From positions 1 through 64,000 of the forward strand of contig NZ_JACJPY010000010.1 of NCBI RefSeq assembly GCF_014696345.1: DNA of 64,000 nucleotides. The letters run 5' to 3'. This document shows, one piece after another, positions 41,637 through 63,069 of this stretch. Under the pieces are notes generated by a model, which searched no databases, was not told the origin of the DNA, and saw only the letters and a program-made list of their open reading frames with translations. Position numbers and translations under genes: made by a program. This DNA is from Pseudanabaena cinerea FACHB-1277. GTDB lineage: Bacteria; Cyanobacteriota; Cyanobacteriia; Pseudanabaenales; Pseudanabaenaceae. The first letter of the stretch is position 1, and each line of letters opens with the position of its first letter.

Positions 41637-41725
41637 GCTGTTAGCTGCTAGCTGTTAGCTACTAGCCGTTAGCTGTTAGCTTTTTCAGGAGCTAAACGCT
41701 AACAGCTAAACGCTAATAGCTAAAC
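41637..41725. repeat. GCTAANN heptamer array with inverted arms (atpD-atpC gap)
   Basis: The right arm at 41691-41725 is five heptamers GCTAAAC, GCTAACA, GCTAAAC, GCTAATA and GCTAAAC. The left arm at about 41637-41680 is six reverse-complement units (TTAGCTG, CTAGCTG, TTAGCTA, CTAGCCG, TTAGCTG, TTAGC). The two arms can pair as a long imperfect hairpin in the atpD-atpC transcript. Confidence 0.75.
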
Positions 41726-56073: not shown

Positions 56074-56103
56074 AAACTCTCAGATTTGCTTTCGGCGGTC
56101 AAA

Positions 56104-56294
56104 GGCTCGAAGAGATCCCCCCCAGCCCCCCTTGTGAAGGGAGGAGAACTTTCTTACTCCCCCTTTGTAAGGGGGATTGAGGGGGATCAAAACCTGAAAA
56201 GGCTCGAAGAGATCCCTCCAGCCCCCCTTGTGAAGGGAGGAGAGCTTTCTTACTCCCCCTTTGTAAGGGGGATTGAGGGGGATCAAAACTTTAA
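56104..56294 (+). repeat. Two tandem copies of a 97-bp G/C-run repeat (nrtA-nrtB gap)
   Basis: Units at 56104-56200 and 56201-56294 both start GGCTCGAAGAGATCCC and contain CCCCCCTTGTGAAGGGAGGA and CCCCCTTTGTAAGGGGGATT, so each unit folds into two stems. They differ at about five positions. The frame of nrtB is open through the repeats, but this is chance translation, not an N-terminal extension. Confidence 0.8.
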
Positions 56295-56385: not shown

Positions 56386-57315
56386 ATGGCGACAAGTAGT
56401 TTAAGTTCTCGATTTAGTCCCAATAAAATTGCTGAATGGTTTCAACAACAGGCAAAATTTATTATCCCTCCTGTAATTGCCTTGGTATTCTTGCTAGGCA
56501 TTTGGCAGATTCTCTGCTCTGGCACAAAGCCACCACTGCCAGCCCCAGCCACAGTTTGGAAAGAGACTCAAGAATATATTTGGCATCCATTTTTTGATCG
56601 CGCCAGTTTTGATGTTAATACAGCCGAAAAAATCGACAGCCCCGCTCGCAAAGCCCTCAAAGAAAAGCTAACCATTGAGCAAGGGCTGGGCATAAAAACG
56701 ATGACCAGCTTGCGCCGTGTGGCTGTTGGCTATACCGCTTCGGCAATTATTGGTATTTCCCTTGGCATAGCGATCGGCACTAACGCCTTTTTGTACCGTG
56801 CCTTTGACCCAATTTTCCAAGTATTACGCACGATTCCCCCCCTAGCATGGCTACCGATCGCTATGTCCGCCTTCCAAGGCGTTAACGAATCTCTCAAATC
56901 AGTGGGCTTAGATGTTACTGAAGCCGCCGCTCTATTCGTAATTTTTGTAACTTCCATTTGGCCGATCCTGATGAATACGGCGGTGGGAGTGCAGCAAGTC
57001 CCCCAAGACTATCGCAACGTATCGCGGGTACTGCGTTTGAGCAAATTTGATTATTTCATCACCATTCTCATGCCATCGGCAGCACCTTACATTTTCACTG
57101 GTTTACGGATTGCGGTTGGTTTATCTTGGCTAGCGATCGTGGCGGCAGAAATGTTAACTGGTGGTGTTGGCATTGGCTTCTTTATTTGGGATAGTTACAA
57201 CAGCCAAAAGAGCAGCGAATTGATTTTGGCTCTGTTTTACATCGGCGTAGTTGGCTTTTTCCTTGACAAATTGATCTTTTATATCAGCAAGTTCACAGTT
57301 CAGTCAGATTCTTAG
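56386..57315 (+). CDS. nrtB: Nitrate ABC transporter permease
   Basis: The 309-residue membrane protein has about six helices (the first near 28-46) and the BPD-transporter EAA-like loop, EAAALFVIFVTSIWPILMNT and VPQDYRNVSRVLRLSKFDYF, which contacts the ATPases. The true start is ATG at 56386 (MATSSLSSRF) with GGAG ten bases ahead. An open frame reaching back to 56086 is repeat sequence. Third gene of the nitrate cluster. Confidence 0.95.
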   Translation: MATSSLSSRFSPNKIAEWFQQQAKFIIPPVIALVFLLGIWQILCSGTKPPLPAPATVWKETQEYIWHPFFDRASFDVNTAEKIDSPARKALKEKLTIEQGLGIKTMTSLRRVAVGYTASAIIGISLGIAIGTNAFLYRAFDPIFQVLRTIPPLAWLPIAMSAFQGVNESLKSVGLDVTEAAALFVIFVTSIWPILMNTAVGVQQVPQDYRNVSRVLRLSKFDYFITILMPSAAPYIFTGLRIAVGLSWLAIVAAEMLTGGVGIGFFIWDSYNSQKSSELILALFYIGVVGFFLDKLIFYISKFTVQSDS

Positions 57316-57553
57316 TTGGCTTTTAGCTTTTGGCTTTTAGCTTTTGGCTTTTAGCGATTAGCTTTTAGCTTTTCAAGTAATTTCTTAGTTTAAGTAAATA
57401 CAGAATTTGCTAAAGATTATGAAATTAGACCTATGTATTTACTCTATATGTAACATCCAAAAGCTAACAGCTAATCGCTAACAGCTAAAAGCTAACGGCT
57501 AACGGCTAACAGCTAATCGCTAACGGCTAACAGCTAACGGCTAATCGCTAAAA
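57316..57553. repeat. GCTAANN heptamer array with inverted arms (nrtB-nrtD gap)
   Basis: The right arm at 57463-57553 holds 13 uninterrupted heptamers GCTAANN, where NN is CA, TC, AA or CG. The left arm at about 57316-57373 is the reverse complement (TTAGCTT / TTGGCTT units, about eight). The arms can pair over more than 50 bases. The unique middle (57374-57462) is AT-rich without features. Confidence 0.85.
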
Positions 57554-57596
57554 GCCCTCCCTCTCTCCTAAATAACCCCAAATACCACTTTCCCCT

Positions 57597-58433
57597 ATGC
57601 AAACCCTTGACATTACCGACAATCAACAACCTAGAAATCAAGATCCTTTTTTGGTGATTGATGGTGTATCTAAGGTCTATCCCACGCCCAGAGGTGCTTA
57701 CACAGTTCTCCAAGATGTGAACTTGACCGTGTATGAGGGTGAGTTTATTTGTGTGATTGGTCACTCTGGCTGTGGCAAATCGACTTTGTTAAATATGGTT
57801 GCAGGTTTTAATCGTCCCACTAGTGGCGAAATCTGTTTGCGATCAAAACCAATTTTGCGCCCAGGCCCCGATCGCATGGTGGTATTTCAGAACTATTCCC
57901 TATTGCCTTGGATGACAGCTTTTGAAAATGTGTTACTGGCAGTCAAACAGGTATATAGCGACAAAAGCAAAGAAGAAAAAATTAAAATTGCTAAGGATAG
58001 TTTAGCAATGGTGGGCTTGACCGAAGCAATGCACAAAAAGCCGAAACAGCTTTCGGGTGGGATGCGTCAGCGCGTATCGATCGCCCGTGCCTTGTCAATC
58101 CGTCCTGAAGTGCTGATTCTTGATGAACCCTTTGGCGCATTGGATGTGATGACCCGCGAAGAGTTGCAGGAAGAACTACTGGCAATCTGGCGCGAGCATA
58201 AAGTGACAGCGCTAATGATTACCCACGAAATTGATGAGGCATTATTTCTAGCCGATCGCATCGTGATGATGAGTAATGGGCCTGCCGCCAACATTGCCGA
58301 AATCATTGAAGTTCCCTTTGCCCGCCCCCGCAATCGCAAAGCGATCGCCGATGATCCTCGCTATTACTCACTCCGCAATTATATTCTCGAATTTCTCTAT
58401 AGCCGTTTTGCCCTTGCTGATGATGCTGAGTAG
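57597..58433 (+). CDS. nrtD: Nitrate transport ATPase without regulatory domain (NrtD type)
   Basis: The 278-residue ATPase has Walker A GHSGCGKSTLLNMVAGF, signature LSGGMRQRVSIARAL, Walker B VLILDEPFGALD and ITHEIDEALFLADRIVMM. It lacks the NrtA-like C-terminal domain, so by architecture it is NrtD, although it stands in the usual place of nrtC. It pairs with NrtC at the membrane to drive NrtB. The gap to nrtB is filled with heptamers. ATG at 57597 lies 44 bases after the array. Confidence 0.9.
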   Translation: MQTLDITDNQQPRNQDPFLVIDGVSKVYPTPRGAYTVLQDVNLTVYEGEFICVIGHSGCGKSTLLNMVAGFNRPTSGEICLRSKPILRPGPDRMVVFQNYSLLPWMTAFENVLLAVKQVYSDKSKEEKIKIAKDSLAMVGLTEAMHKKPKQLSGGMRQRVSIARALSIRPEVLILDEPFGALDVMTREELQEELLAIWREHKVTALMITHEIDEALFLADRIVMMSNGPAANIAEIIEVPFARPRNRKAIADDPRYYSLRNYILEFLYSRFALADDAE

Positions 58434-58638
58434 TTAATAGCTATTAGCTTTTAGCTTTTAGCTTTTAATGCAAATGATCAACGATTCTATAAAAAACAAA
58501 TTATTCACCTCATTGGAAAGCCAATAGCTAGCCGCTAACCGCTAAAAGCTAACCGCTAAAAGCTAAAAGCTAATAGCTAACCGCTAACCGCTAACCGCCA
58601 ATCCCCAATCCCCAATCCCCAATCCCCAATCCCCAATT
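58434..58638. repeat. Heptamer array GCTAANN passing into CCCCAAT before nrtC
   Basis: The right arm at 58520-58638 comprises 17 heptamers in one 7-bp phase. There are eleven GCYAANN-like units, then GCCAATC, then CCCAATC four times and CCCAATT. The second part equals the STRR CCCCAAT repeat. The left arm at 58434-58467 has TTAGCTT units in reverse. The array ends four bases before the nrtC ATG, so there is no room for a ribosome binding site. Confidence 0.85.
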
Positions 58639-58642
58639 CATC

Positions 58643-60667
58643 ATGTCAACAACTTTCCTCGAAATCGATCACGTCAGTCGTGTTTTTAAAAATGATAAAG
58701 GGCTGCCCTTTGTGGCGATTAAAGATGTCTATTTTGAAATGAAGGAAGGCGAGTTTGTCTCAATTATTGGGCATTCTGGCTGTGGTAAGTCAACGGTATT
58801 AAATATTCTGTCAGGATTAGATCGCGCCAGTGAAGGCGGGATTGTTTTGGAAGGTCGTGAAGTACGTGAGCCAGGACCCGATCGGATGTTGGTATTTCAA
58901 AATCATTCCCTATTGCCTTGGTTAACGGTGCGTCAAAATATTGGCTTGGCGGTAAACCGAGTAATGCGGCAATTACCAAAGCAGGAAAGAAATCGGATTA
59001 TTCAAGAGAATATTGATTTAGTTGGGTTAAGTCATGCCGCCGATAAATATCCCAGAGAAATTTCGGGTGGGATGAAGCAAAGAGTTGGGATTGCCAGGGC
59101 TTTGGCAATTAAGCCAAAGATTCTCTTACTTGATGAACCTTTTGGAGCGTTAGATGCTTTGACTAGAGGACGCTTGCAAGAAAAGTTAATGCAGATCTGC
59201 GATGAGCATAAAATCTCGGCGGTGATGATCACCCATGATGTGGATGAAGCATTATTACTTAGCGATCGCGTTGTAATGATGACCAATGGACCTGAAGCCA
59301 AAATCGGTCAAGTTCTCACGGTCGATCTGCCCCATCCGCGCAAGCGCTTGGAAACCGTCAATCATCCTAATTATTACCGTTTGCGTGGTGAAGTTGTGAA
59401 CTTCCTCGATCGCCAAAAGCAGATCAAACTAGATCGTCTGAAGATGAAGAGCAATGCCGTCATCAGTATGGGCAGCATCGAGAAAACCAATCTCACCATT
59501 GGTTACATTCCACTCACGGACTGCGCTCCCTTTGTGGTGGCTCAGGAAAAGGGACTATTTGCCAAGTATGGTTTAGATGTTACTCTCTCTAAAGAAACTA
59601 GTTGGAACGATCTCGCTGAAGGTATTCGTGAAGGTCGCCTTGATGCCGCGCAAATGGTAACAGGACTCCCCCTTGCCATTACTTTAGGCATGGGAAATAA
59701 AATCCCTGTGCCTGTGGTCACATCCCTCACCCTCAGTCGCAATGGCAACGCGATTACTCTCAGTAAAAAGCTCCAAGAAACGGGAGTTCATGATCTTGCG
59801 TCTTTAAAGACCTATATCGATAGTTGCCAAGATGCCTACAATCCTGCTTTGGGCATGGTACATCATGCTTCGATGCACAACTTTATGCTGCGGCATTGGC
59901 TGGCGAGTGGTGGCATTCAGCCCGATCAGGATGTGGATGTAATCGTGATTCCACCACCGCAGATGGTGTCGAACTTGATGGCAAATAATATTATTGGCTA
60001 TTGTGTCGGCGAACCTTGGAATGTGCGGGCTGTGGATAGCAATGTCGGTTTTGTGGTTGCCACTGACCTAGATATTTGGCGCGGACATCCTGAGAAAGTG
60101 TTAGGAGTTCGCAAAGAATGGGCGGAACAATATCCCCATACGCATTTAGCACTGGTGAAAGCTTTGCTAGAAGCAGCACAGTTCTGTGAACCCCTAGAAA
60201 ATCGCGATGAGATTGTCTTGATGCTGTCACAGCCGCAATATTTGAATCTATCCCCCGTTTACATTCGTCCAGGATTTGCGGGTCCCTATCGCGTGAATAC
60301 GATGGAAGCAAAGTATTACAAAGACTTCTGCCAATTTGGTGTGGGGAATATGCCCTCTCGCAAAGAACAGTTATGGATACTCACACAGATGGCGCGGTGG
60401 GGTTTAGTTAATTTTCCTGAGAATCATGCGGAAGTGATCTATAACCTTTTGGCAACCGATGTCTATCATCAAGCGGCAAAGGAATTAAACATTGAGGTTA
60501 CAGAAGAAGATCGCGAAGCGATCGCCTTGGCTGATGGCTCCACCTTCGATGCTAACGACCCGATCGCCGCTTTAAGTGCCATGCCCTATTCCCAATTCAC
60601 GGAACCTGTACATTTTGACTCTGTAAAAGGCTTCGCCAGCAAAAAAGTTGCCACAGCAAGGCATTAA
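58643..60667 (+). CDS. nrtC: Nitrate transport ATPase with NrtA-like regulatory domain (NrtC)
   Basis: The 674-residue fusion protein has an ABC ATPase at 1-260 (GHSGCGKSTVLNILSGLD, ISGGMKQRVGIARALA, LLLDEPFGALDAL). An NrtA-like domain follows from about 275 (LTIGYIPLTDCAPFVVAQEK, GYCVGEPWNVRAVDSNVGFV). In Synechococcus this C-terminal domain mediates inhibition of transport by ammonium. It lies after nrtD here, against the usual order. The start codon directly follows the STRR array, with no Shine-Dalgarno. Confidence 0.94.
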   Translation: MSTTFLEIDHVSRVFKNDKGLPFVAIKDVYFEMKEGEFVSIIGHSGCGKSTVLNILSGLDRASEGGIVLEGREVREPGPDRMLVFQNHSLLPWLTVRQNIGLAVNRVMRQLPKQERNRIIQENIDLVGLSHAADKYPREISGGMKQRVGIARALAIKPKILLLDEPFGALDALTRGRLQEKLMQICDEHKISAVMITHDVDEALLLSDRVVMMTNGPEAKIGQVLTVDLPHPRKRLETVNHPNYYRLRGEVVNFLDRQKQIKLDRLKMKSNAVISMGSIEKTNLTIGYIPLTDCAPFVVAQEKGLFAKYGLDVTLSKETSWNDLAEGIREGRLDAAQMVTGLPLAITLGMGNKIPVPVVTSLTLSRNGNAITLSKKLQETGVHDLASLKTYIDSCQDAYNPALGMVHHASMHNFMLRHWLASGGIQPDQDVDVIVIPPPQMVSNLMANNIIGYCVGEPWNVRAVDSNVGFVVATDLDIWRGHPEKVLGVRKEWAEQYPHTHLALVKALLEAAQFCEPLENRDEIVLMLSQPQYLNLSPVYIRPGFAGPYRVNTMEAKYYKDFCQFGVGNMPSRKEQLWILTQMARWGLVNFPENHAEVIYNLLATDVYHQAAKELNIEVTEEDREAIALADGSTFDANDPIAALSAMPYSQFTEPVHFDSVKGFASKKVATARH

Positions 60668-60668
60668 G

Positions 60669-60709
60669 ACCCTCACCCCTAGCCCCTCTCCCAAAAGGGG
60701 AGAGGGGGA
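60669..60709. repeat. CCCTCTCCC / GGGGAGAGGGGG palindrome after nrtC
   Basis: ACCCTCACCCCTAGCCCCTC followed by TCCCAAAAGGGGAGAGGGGG. This is a common cyanobacterial dispersed palindrome that folds into a hairpin directly after the nrtC stop codon (60665-60667). It may reduce read-through into narB. Confidence 0.55.
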
Positions 60710-60739
60710 CAAGTTATTTGCTATAGCATGAGTTACTAA

Positions 60740-60823
60740 TGATCCCCCTCAATCCCCCTTGAGAAAGGGGGAAGAAGAAAATTCTCCCCCCTTTCTCAAG
60801 GGGGGCTGGGGGGGATCGAAACT
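60740..60823. repeat. CCCCCTCAATCCCCCTT double palindrome (nrtC-narB gap)
   Basis: GATCCCCCTCAATCCCCCTT, then GAGAAAGGGGGAAGAAGAAA and the inverted half with CCCCCCTTTCTCAAGGGGGG ending CTGGGGGGGATC. It is the longest copy of the family also seen at 3709, 8522 and 56104. Confidence 0.75.
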
Positions 60824-60864
60824 TTGAACCGTAAATGGCAAATAAGCCATCAGATAATAACAAT

Positions 60865-60892
60865 CCCCAATCCCCAATCCCCAATCCCCAAT
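60865..60892 (+). repeat. CCCCAAT heptamer (STRR type) before narB
   Basis: Four exact copies of CCCCAAT end eight bases before the narB start codon. The same heptamer stands before nrtC. The heptamers can be read in the narB frame, but this is not evidence of translation. Confidence 0.85.
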
Positions 60893-60900
60893 TACCAATC

Positions 60901-63069
60901 ATGTCCACTTCCCTCGAAACTATCAAAACTCTCTGCCCCTATTGTGGAGTTGGCTGTGGTTTGGAGGTGGTAGAAACTGGTAAAGAACCAACACTCAAAT
61001 TTCCCGATCGCTTTAAAGTGCGAGGCGATCGCGCCCATCCATCGAGTCAGGGCATGGTTTGTGTGAAGGGGGCGACCATTGCCGAATCAATTCAGAAGGA
61101 TCGCTTACTGCATCCAATGATGCGCGATCGCTTGGGTGATCAGTTCCGTCAAGTTAGTTGGGATGAGGCTTTCGATAGAATTACGCAACGAATTCAGGAA
61201 GTCTTAGCGACCAAGGGAGCCGATGCTCTCTGTATGTATGGTTCGGGACAGTTCCAAACCGAAGACTATTACACCGCCCAAAAATTATTTAAGGGCTGTT
61301 TAGGAACCAATAATTTTGATGCTAACTCACGGCTCTGTATGTCTTCGGCAGTGTCGGGCTATGTCAAAAGCTTCGGCTCCGATGGTCCTCCCTGCTGCTA
61401 TGAGGATTTTGATTTAACCGACTGTTTATTTGCGATCGGTACAAATACCGCCGAATGTCATCCCATTATTTTTAATCGGTTTCGCAAGCGCCATAAAAAG
61501 GAAGCTCACGTTAAGCTAATCGTGGTTGATCCGCGCCGTACTCAAACTGCGGAAGTTGCCGATTTACATCTAGCAATTCAACCAGGAACAGATATTGATT
61601 TATTAAATGGAATCGCGCATTTACTATTACTTTGGGGGAAAAGCGATCGCGCCTTCATTGAAAATCACACCAATGGCTTCACCGAATTTCAAGAACTGAC
61701 TCAACATTACACCCCCGAATTTGTGTCGCGGCGCTGCGGTATCAGCATTGAGGAGCTAGAACTAGCGGCAAAATATTGGGCAGAATCGCCACGAGTTCTC
61801 TCCATTTGGTCAATGGGTATCAATCAATCAGTCCAAGGCACTGCCAAAGTACAGTCGATTATTAATTTGCATTTACTCACAGGACAGATAGGCAAAGAGG
61901 GTGCAGGTGCTTTTTCGCTGACAGGACAGCCCAACGCCATGGGCGGACGCGAAGCAGGCGGATTAGCGCATTTACTACCAGGCTATCGCTTTGCCACCAA
62001 TCCCGATCACCGTGCTGAACTAGAAGCATTTTGGCAATTGCCCAAGGGCAGTATTTCGCCGCAGGTTGGGCGCACTGCTTGGGATATCGTGCGTGGTTTG
62101 GAATCCGATCAAGTGGCTTTTCTCTGGATTGCTGCCACAAATCCTGCGGTGAGTTTTCCTGATTTGGTAAGGACTAAGGCAGCTTTGAGGCGATCGCCCT
62201 TCACCGTTTATCAAGATGCCTATTTTCCCACCGAAACCTCTGAGTTTGCCCATATCTTATTACCCGCCACCCAATGGAGCGAAAAGACTGGCACAATGAC
62301 CAATTCTGAACGATGCGTTACTCTCTGCCAAGCCTTTCAGCCCCCCCTTGGCGAAGCCAAAGCCGATTGGGAAATCTTCGCTGAAGTTGGTCGCCGCCTT
62401 GGATTTAATGCCCAATTCCAGTTCCAAAATTCCGCCGATGTCTATGCAGAATTTGCCCAAATCACCCGCGATCGCCCCTGCGAAATTACAGGTATCACCC
62501 ATGCCAAACTCGCCGAACTAGGTGCTATCCAATATCCCTGCAAAGATAGCGCCCCCGAACTTGATCAAGTCCATAACAAGCGCCTCTATACCGATCGCCA
62601 ATTCCACACCAGCGATCGCCGCGCCAACTTCGCTGCCTACCATTCCCAAGGTGTATTTGAAGTTCCCGATCAAGCATATCCATTTATCCTCACCACAGGC
62701 AGACTTTACGGACATTGGCATACCCAAACCCGCACAGGACGTATCGACAAAATTCGCCAAATGCACCCCCATCCCTTTATCGAAATCCATCCTCAAGATG
62801 CCGATAAGTTGGGAATTAATGACGGCGATCTGGTGGAAGTAAAATCAAGGCGCGGTGCTTCTAAATTCCCTGCAATGGTAACTAAGGCGATCGCCCCTGG
62901 TGTTGTCTTTGTGCCGATGCACTGGGGCGCACTCTGGGCAGACAATGCTGAAGCCAATGCTCTCACCCATGCCGAAGCCTGTCCTGACTCAAAACAACCA
63001 GAGTTAAAGGCTTGTGCGGTGGCGATCGCCTTTTTCTCCATCACCCTTAACTCGTCCAAAATATCTTAG
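60901..63069 (+). CDS. narB: Ferredoxin-nitrate reductase
   Basis: The 722-residue molybdenum bis-MGD enzyme reduces nitrate to nitrite. The N-terminal [4Fe-4S] cysteines lie in CPYCGVGCG (Cys12, 15, 19) with the fourth in [10 protein letters not shown]. It has the molybdopterin domains [40 protein letters not shown] and the C-terminal [23 protein letters not shown] at 60901 is used. A 22-residue in-frame extension upstream is translated heptamer repeat. The last 15 residues are encoded by the 56-bp repeat shared with 63740 and may not be the original end. Confidence 0.95.

Follow-up and report, generated by a model that had tools for sequence, protein, structure and literature searches.

Heptamer arrays in the nitrate assimilation operon

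The window (the whole stretch of DNA analysed, 64,000 nt) belongs to a Pseudanabaena genome of 4.77 Mb in 179 contigs, and the region considered here is a nitrate assimilation operon with the gene order nirA-nrtA-nrtB-nrtD-nrtC-narB, in which profile hits to known families back the nitrite reductase and transporter genes. The gene order up to nrtC is kept in relatives, and NrtC is 98% identical to that of Pseudanabaena sp. ULC187bin1. The gap between the nrtD stop codon (58431-58433) and the nrtC ATG at 58643 and the two flanking genes comprise the following features, those of the core and of the unit blocks by direct reading.

57597-58433, + strand: nrtD-type nitrate ABC transporter ATP-binding gene, the upstream neighbour (TIGR01184, NCBIfam 7e-116)
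58438-58467, - strand: left arm of inverted GCTAAAA-type heptamers, (TAGCTTT)n on the + strand, starting 4 nt past the nrtD stop
58468-58519, no strand: unique core (loop region) of about 52 nt
58520-58596, + strand: right arm of 11 GCYAANN-like units, two degenerate and nine GCTAANN, pairing with the left arm
58520-58533, + strand: the degenerate right-arm units GCCAATA and GCTAGCC
58534-58596, + strand: the nine GCTAANN units
58597-58603, + strand: junction unit GCCAATC
58604-58638, + strand: tail of four CCCAATC (58604-58631) and one CCCAATT (58632-58638), unpaired in the predicted RNA fold
58639-58642, + strand: CATC, the 4 nt from the array to the nrtC ATG, without a Shine-Dalgarno (SD) motif
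58643-60667, + strand: nrtC, encoding 674 aa with an NrtA-like domain joined to an ABC ATPase, and with a start position conserved in relatives

Thus 17 heptamers run through 58520-58638 in a single 7-nt phase: eleven GCYAANN-like (GC-type) units, GCCAATC, and the five CCCAATC or CCCAATT (CC-type) units. An earlier note on this DNA had described the eleven GCYAANN-like units, their common phase with the tail and the 4-nt spacing to the nrtC ATG, all of which are borne out by direct reading of the sequence; it had overlooked the left arm, and the array is one half of an element with inverted arms. Both blocks of the gap are scored by Tandem Repeats Finder. The whole gap is predicted to fold into an imperfect hairpin (RNA minimum free energy -50.7 kcal/mol, z -7.2, with 0 shuffles equally good), in which the entire CCCAAUC tail and the nrtC AUG are unpaired. 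The core has no copies elsewhere among the fetched arrays, except for short heptamer-like matches. Neither an intrinsic terminator (G+C-rich stem and T run) nor a sigma-70-type promoter was found in the gap, and Rfam 15 gave zero matches above gathering score at 57200-61000.

Enterobacterial REP/BIME palindromes are likewise intercistronic inverted repeats that are likely to fold in operon mRNA. They differ from the present element in that they are not tandem arrays of heptamers and carry no tail toward a start codon. Another parallel in build is the P6b stem-loop of the Nostoc tRNA-Leu(UAA) intron, both stem arms of which are heptamer arrays that change in 7-nt steps, with two heptamer classes replacing each other (PMC4476775). 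However, P6b lies inside a self-splicing intron, its classes replace rather than join each other, and its motifs are TDNGATT and NNTGAGT (PMC4476775). No tRNA was found in the window, so the array lies outside any tRNA-Leu group I intron.

Further heptamer elements are present in the same window:

57314-57369, - strand: left arm of the nrtB-nrtD element, directly next to the stop codon of nrtB
57370-57455, no strand: core of the nrtB-nrtD element, common to Pseudanabaena sp. ULC187bin1
57456-57553, + strand: right arm of this nrtB-nrtD element, made of 14 units with no CC tail and separated by 43 nt from the nrtD ATG
41637-41725, no strand: third inverted heptamer element (left arm 41637-41681, right arm 41691-41725)
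60866-60900, + strand: pure CCCAATC-type array, 0 nt from the narB ATG at 60901

The RNA fold predicted for the nrtB-nrtD gap reaches -92.2 kcal/mol (z -8.2). In addition, a repeat element of some kind is present in each of the nrtA-nrtB, nrtB-nrtD, nrtD-nrtC and nrtC-narB gaps. The nrtA-nrtB gap (56101-56289) holds a tandemly duplicated 96-bp unit with CCCCCC...GGGGGG palindromes (96% match), a family different from the heptamers, and the nrtC-narB gap (60740-60815) holds a long palindrome, GATCCCCCTCAATCCCCC...GGGGGGATC.

Turnover of the gap and distribution of the arrays

The nrtD-nrtC gap turns over fast, with lengths between 12 and about 209 nt in the relatives read. In two of them (L086 and L094) it measures 12 nt and has no repeat, so the array is not required at nrtC. 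Inverted GCTAANN arms occupy the gap in L085 and L095; six other relatives (L080, L081, L082, L083, L091 and L092) carry another inverted heptamer pair, AATTACG/CGTAATT, and the core inside this pair is conserved among the three compared (L080, L082, L091). Simple palindromes are found in L087 and L096. In the closest relative (L078), the gap is just 36 nt without a hairpin, and GCCAATC CCCAATC CCCAAAA precedes the nrtC ATG; its nrtB-nrtD gap has the core in common, with about half as many units per arm. When the nrtD-nrtC core was compared with those of relatives, none matched convincingly; the lowest P, before any correction for multiple testing, was 0.046 (L095).

Of the 26 Pseudanabaena genomes, 22 carry arrays of four GCTAANN units, as against one of 12 genomes from the rest of the family, and the five-unit pattern was met in five of 117 sampled cyanobacteria, counting the own genome. 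The exact hybrid pattern (GC-type units passing into CC-type units) was confined to the own genome among 292 cyanobacteria, and a looser form of it is present in 9/26 Pseudanabaena genomes. The hybrids examined in other genomes occupy five gene positions and all run from GC-type to CC-type toward the start codon, four of them at 0-21 nt and one at 68 nt. Upstream of a gene that we take from its sequence to be kdpC, the hybrid is found in five genomes, the own included, with a similar CC tail and a varying GC block. Before one other gene, 20 GCTAAAA units in one genome correspond to three GC-type units in the next, and the tail is identical; at one locus, the L110 and L116 arrays are 17 GCTAAAA-type units apart.

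The orthologous nrt gaps and hybrid loci of these relatives show that array copy number does vary from strain to strain. The earlier note proposed that copy number could tune NrtC translation and that the two families interconvert by point change. The position of the array beside the nrtC ATG and the strain variation fit this proposal, as does the existence of expression-tuning repeat tracts in the Moraxella uspA genes (described in PMC4679880). Nevertheless, we regard it as unlikely, since two relatives manage with the 12-nt gap and no array, the genes bearing hybrids (e.g. nrtC and kdpC) are unrelated, and the junction units between the families are order-specific (19/22 against 0/5, see below).

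Genome-wide arrangement of the two families

In the whole genome, the three-unit GCYAANN pattern has 382 places, compared with 22 for the reversed pattern, and three-unit CCAATCC has 51 compared with 0; these counts rule out that the arrays arose by chance. The statistics below come from the window plus 37 stretches that surround arrays located by pattern search, with 89 arrays of at least three units. The stretches were picked for holding arrays, so the figures describe arrays and not genes. Gene starts were taken from a simple in-house caller, and the assignment of arrays to genes was set by hand for three (L055 10014, narB and L048 5306).

Neighbouring GC-type arms are arranged minus-then-plus in 23 cases and plus-then-minus in 0. 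GC-only arms face starts in 23 cases and stops in 31, whereas hybrid arms with a CC tail face starts in 12 and stops in 0 (Fisher 2e-4 against GC-only); for all CC-ended arrays, pure CC included, the count is 23 toward starts and 0 toward stops (p 4e-7). The median distance of the outermost GC-type unit is 33.5 nt for starts and 1 nt for stops (Mann-Whitney 4e-8). Some GC-only arms come within 4-5 nt of an ATG. GC-type arms often overlap the stop codon, since TAG or TAA turns up in whichever frame a unit is read. Paired arms differ more at unit positions 6-7 than random pairs do (likeness 0.113 versus 0.200, P 0.011; a single test with a modest P value), frequently with GCTAAAA in one arm and GCTAACN in its partner. 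Perfect palindromes thus appear to be avoided, and tight stem pairing is not maximised.

Slippage in unconstrained intergenic DNA might by itself expand such arrays up to the coding sequence, with nothing regulated, and the bias would then mean that only harmless forms remain, GC units having stops in all frames and CC units none. In favour of this neutral explanation are the arms that abut stop codons (median 1 nt), the 12 to about 209 nt range of the gap among relatives, the 17-unit difference between L110 and L116, and the presence of CC arrays within predicted coding frames, in which GC arrays seldom occur. However, on its own it leaves unexplained the 23/0 arm polarity, the 23/0 facing of CC ends and the conservation of the kdpC tail in five genomes, and we consider it possible, though short of probable. 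In one predicted reading frame (L055 2992-3110), CCCAATC, ACCAATT and ACGAATT units follow each other in one 7-nt phase, so that a third heptamer family has the common register. GCTAATC GCTAATT ACCAATC repeats as a higher-order block at L059 6895-6985 (- strand), which shows that mixed units slip together.

The constant inverted layout could also be that of a miniature mobile element with heptamer arms inserting into gaps, and two copies (L065 and L077) do have a 12-nt core in common. Yet when the cores were compared by BLAST with the array stretches of the own genome, the others were unrelated beyond short heptamer-like matches and no single element was recognisable, which makes a mobile element with a shared core very improbable.

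The phase common to both families, on which the earlier note had built, recurs elsewhere: it is identical in nine of nine independently located junctions from GCTAA to CCAAT with a spacing of at most 28 nt. In the reverse order, from CCAAT to GCTAA, the phase is equal in 4/7 junctions. The intermediate unit GCCAATC, also foreseen by the note, is recurrent as well; GCCAATY stands at 19 of 22 junctions from GC-type to CC-type and at none of five in the opposite order, where ACCAAAA or ACTAAAA is found in four of five (some of these 22 and 5 junctions are orthologous, and hence not all are independent). Each such junction unit is a chimera with its beginning from the left-hand family and its end from the right-hand family. 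Free point mutation would yield intermediates independent of order, so the order-specific chimeras speak for joining in register and against point changes during slippage as the source of the families, which the note had suggested. Judged from the sequences, joining by template switching or unequal recombination, with the arrays aligned on the common C.AA core, is favoured rather than proven, and a T-to-C bias at position 3 within GC arrays could contribute. The boundary of the kdpC hybrid is stable across five genomes. A strict order of the families, with CC-type never before GC-type, had come from an over-strict pattern and is ruled out by the five junctions in that order.

The heptamers here share with the short tandemly repeated repetitive (STRR) sequences of cyanobacteria the organisation in tandem 7-nt units, in several copies and at many genomic places, and the STRR unit CCCCAAT or a close variant makes up 58604-58638 only; the GCTAANN arm is built from a different unit. 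To our knowledge, such heptamer repeats have been known in cyanobacteria for decades without an agreed function.

CCCAATC is the complement of GGGGATT, and in being 7 nt long, intergenic and variable in copy number, the CC block resembles the STRR or GGGGA(T/C)T repeats of Nostoc and Xanthomonas (PMC4692102). In Nostoc 7120, the GGGGATT repeats precede ORFs by no more than 50 bp and lie on the antisense strand, the same strand preference as that of the CCCAATC arrays here, and few of them are paired as inverted repeats (PMC4692102). Unlike the Nostoc repeats, CCCAATC here is a tail fused in phase to the GCTAANN hairpin arm, and many tails (ACCAATC) lack the G-tracts of a quadruplex. A template-strand G-quadruplex of (GGGGATT)n acting on transcription or replication might nonetheless be considered at nrtC itself, where five C3+ tracts are present, a quadruplex taking at least four G-tracts on one strand (Rehm 2015), and (GGGGATT)4 forms a quadruplex in vitro (PMC4692102). 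However, only 8 of the 23 start-facing CC-ended arrays have that many tracts; the other 15 (many of them ACCAATC) lack four C-tracts and have the same facing bias. A quadruplex role for the block is quite improbable, and as a general cause of the facing bias it is rejected for most loci.

Translation starts and a possible role of the arrays

An SD-like motif is missing in 17 of 19 nrtC orthologues, whatever the gap content, as well as in nrtD and narB of this operon, which contradicts the suggestion of the earlier note that the array has replaced the ribosome binding site. Among 110 predicted starts (in-house gene calls), an SD-like motif precedes 17%, compared with 6% at a control position. 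When CC tails were swapped for GC units in silico, the predicted openness of the -20..+13 region fell at 10 of 13 independent loci, from 0.68 to 0.55 (p 0.006). The native unit order was better than a random one at seven of the 13 loci, a weak effect (p 0.11), with no gain at nrtC itself. Previous work has established that prokaryotic genes without SD sites rely on a local lack of structure for initiation (PMC3121790).

We give an even chance to the reading that an intercistronic heptamer hairpin fills the nrtD-nrtC gap, with the array as its start-facing arm, and that the array is selected for compatibility with initiation and not for copy-number switching. In the nrtD-nrtC mRNA, the GC-type arms would pair into a long imperfect stem, and the CC-type heptamers, lacking both G and a left-arm partner, would form an unpaired C/A-rich spacer over the ribosome-docking zone. 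With the spacer unpaired, the start could be used without an SD site, and translation of nrtC, which lacks one like its orthologues, would begin at an AUG left accessible. The array would grow, shrink and recombine in the 7-nt register through slippage, with GC-type units tolerated up to the upstream stop and mostly about 20-50 nt away from starts, and CC-type units tolerated right up to the AUG. The role of the array is most likely passive, the GC units providing a stem and the CC units an unpaired spacer that may keep the SD-less start open, and access to the start codon is the probable reason why the arrangement recurs across the genome and the genus. More speculatively, and in our view somewhat doubtfully, the two families could make up a two-letter grammar, with a GCTAANN stem after the stop and a calibrated single-stranded CCAATN landing strip before the start; genome-wide selection would keep the grammar, which would thereby set the relative translation of operon neighbours, and copy number would drift.

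A translational role has also been proposed for the TAACTGA direct repeats of Beggiatoaceae and cyanobacteria, which show 7-nt indels between strains (PMC4679880). Like the arrays described here, these heptamers stand a few nt before the starts of genes mostly without canonical ribosome-binding sites (PMC4679880). The unit is a different one, however (MacGregor 2015), as the present arrays consist of GCTAANN and CCCAATC, and the TAACTGA repeats are direct (one indirect repeat was reported), have no predicted structure of their own and, unlike the array here, are described without a second in-phase family (PMC4679880); the two systems would at most work alike. Our literature search, which covered mainly freely accessible papers, returned no description of inverted GCTAANN arms or of hybrids passing from GC-type to CC-type.

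The CCCAATC block is of an already known type, and the strongest part of the finding is the set of genome-wide rules, not the single array. These amount to a quantitative rule (CCAAT-type ends at 23 starts and 0 stops, hairpin units held off starts and not off stops, and one arm polarity) that can be tried out locus by locus, for example at nrtC or kdpC, and gives a concrete reason for the coexistence of two heptamer families in one phase. If the rule holds as we read it, repeat turnover would be linked to SD-independent translation.

Two minor observations concern the start of narB. The narB frame is open over 60835-60900, through the CCCAATC array, where it encodes PQSPIPN peptide repeats, and an automatic gene caller may thereby lengthen NarB by 22 residues. 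In addition, nrtC (58632-58670) and narB (60889-60925) have a similar start context, CCCCAATT...ATGTCMAC..TTCCTCGAAA.
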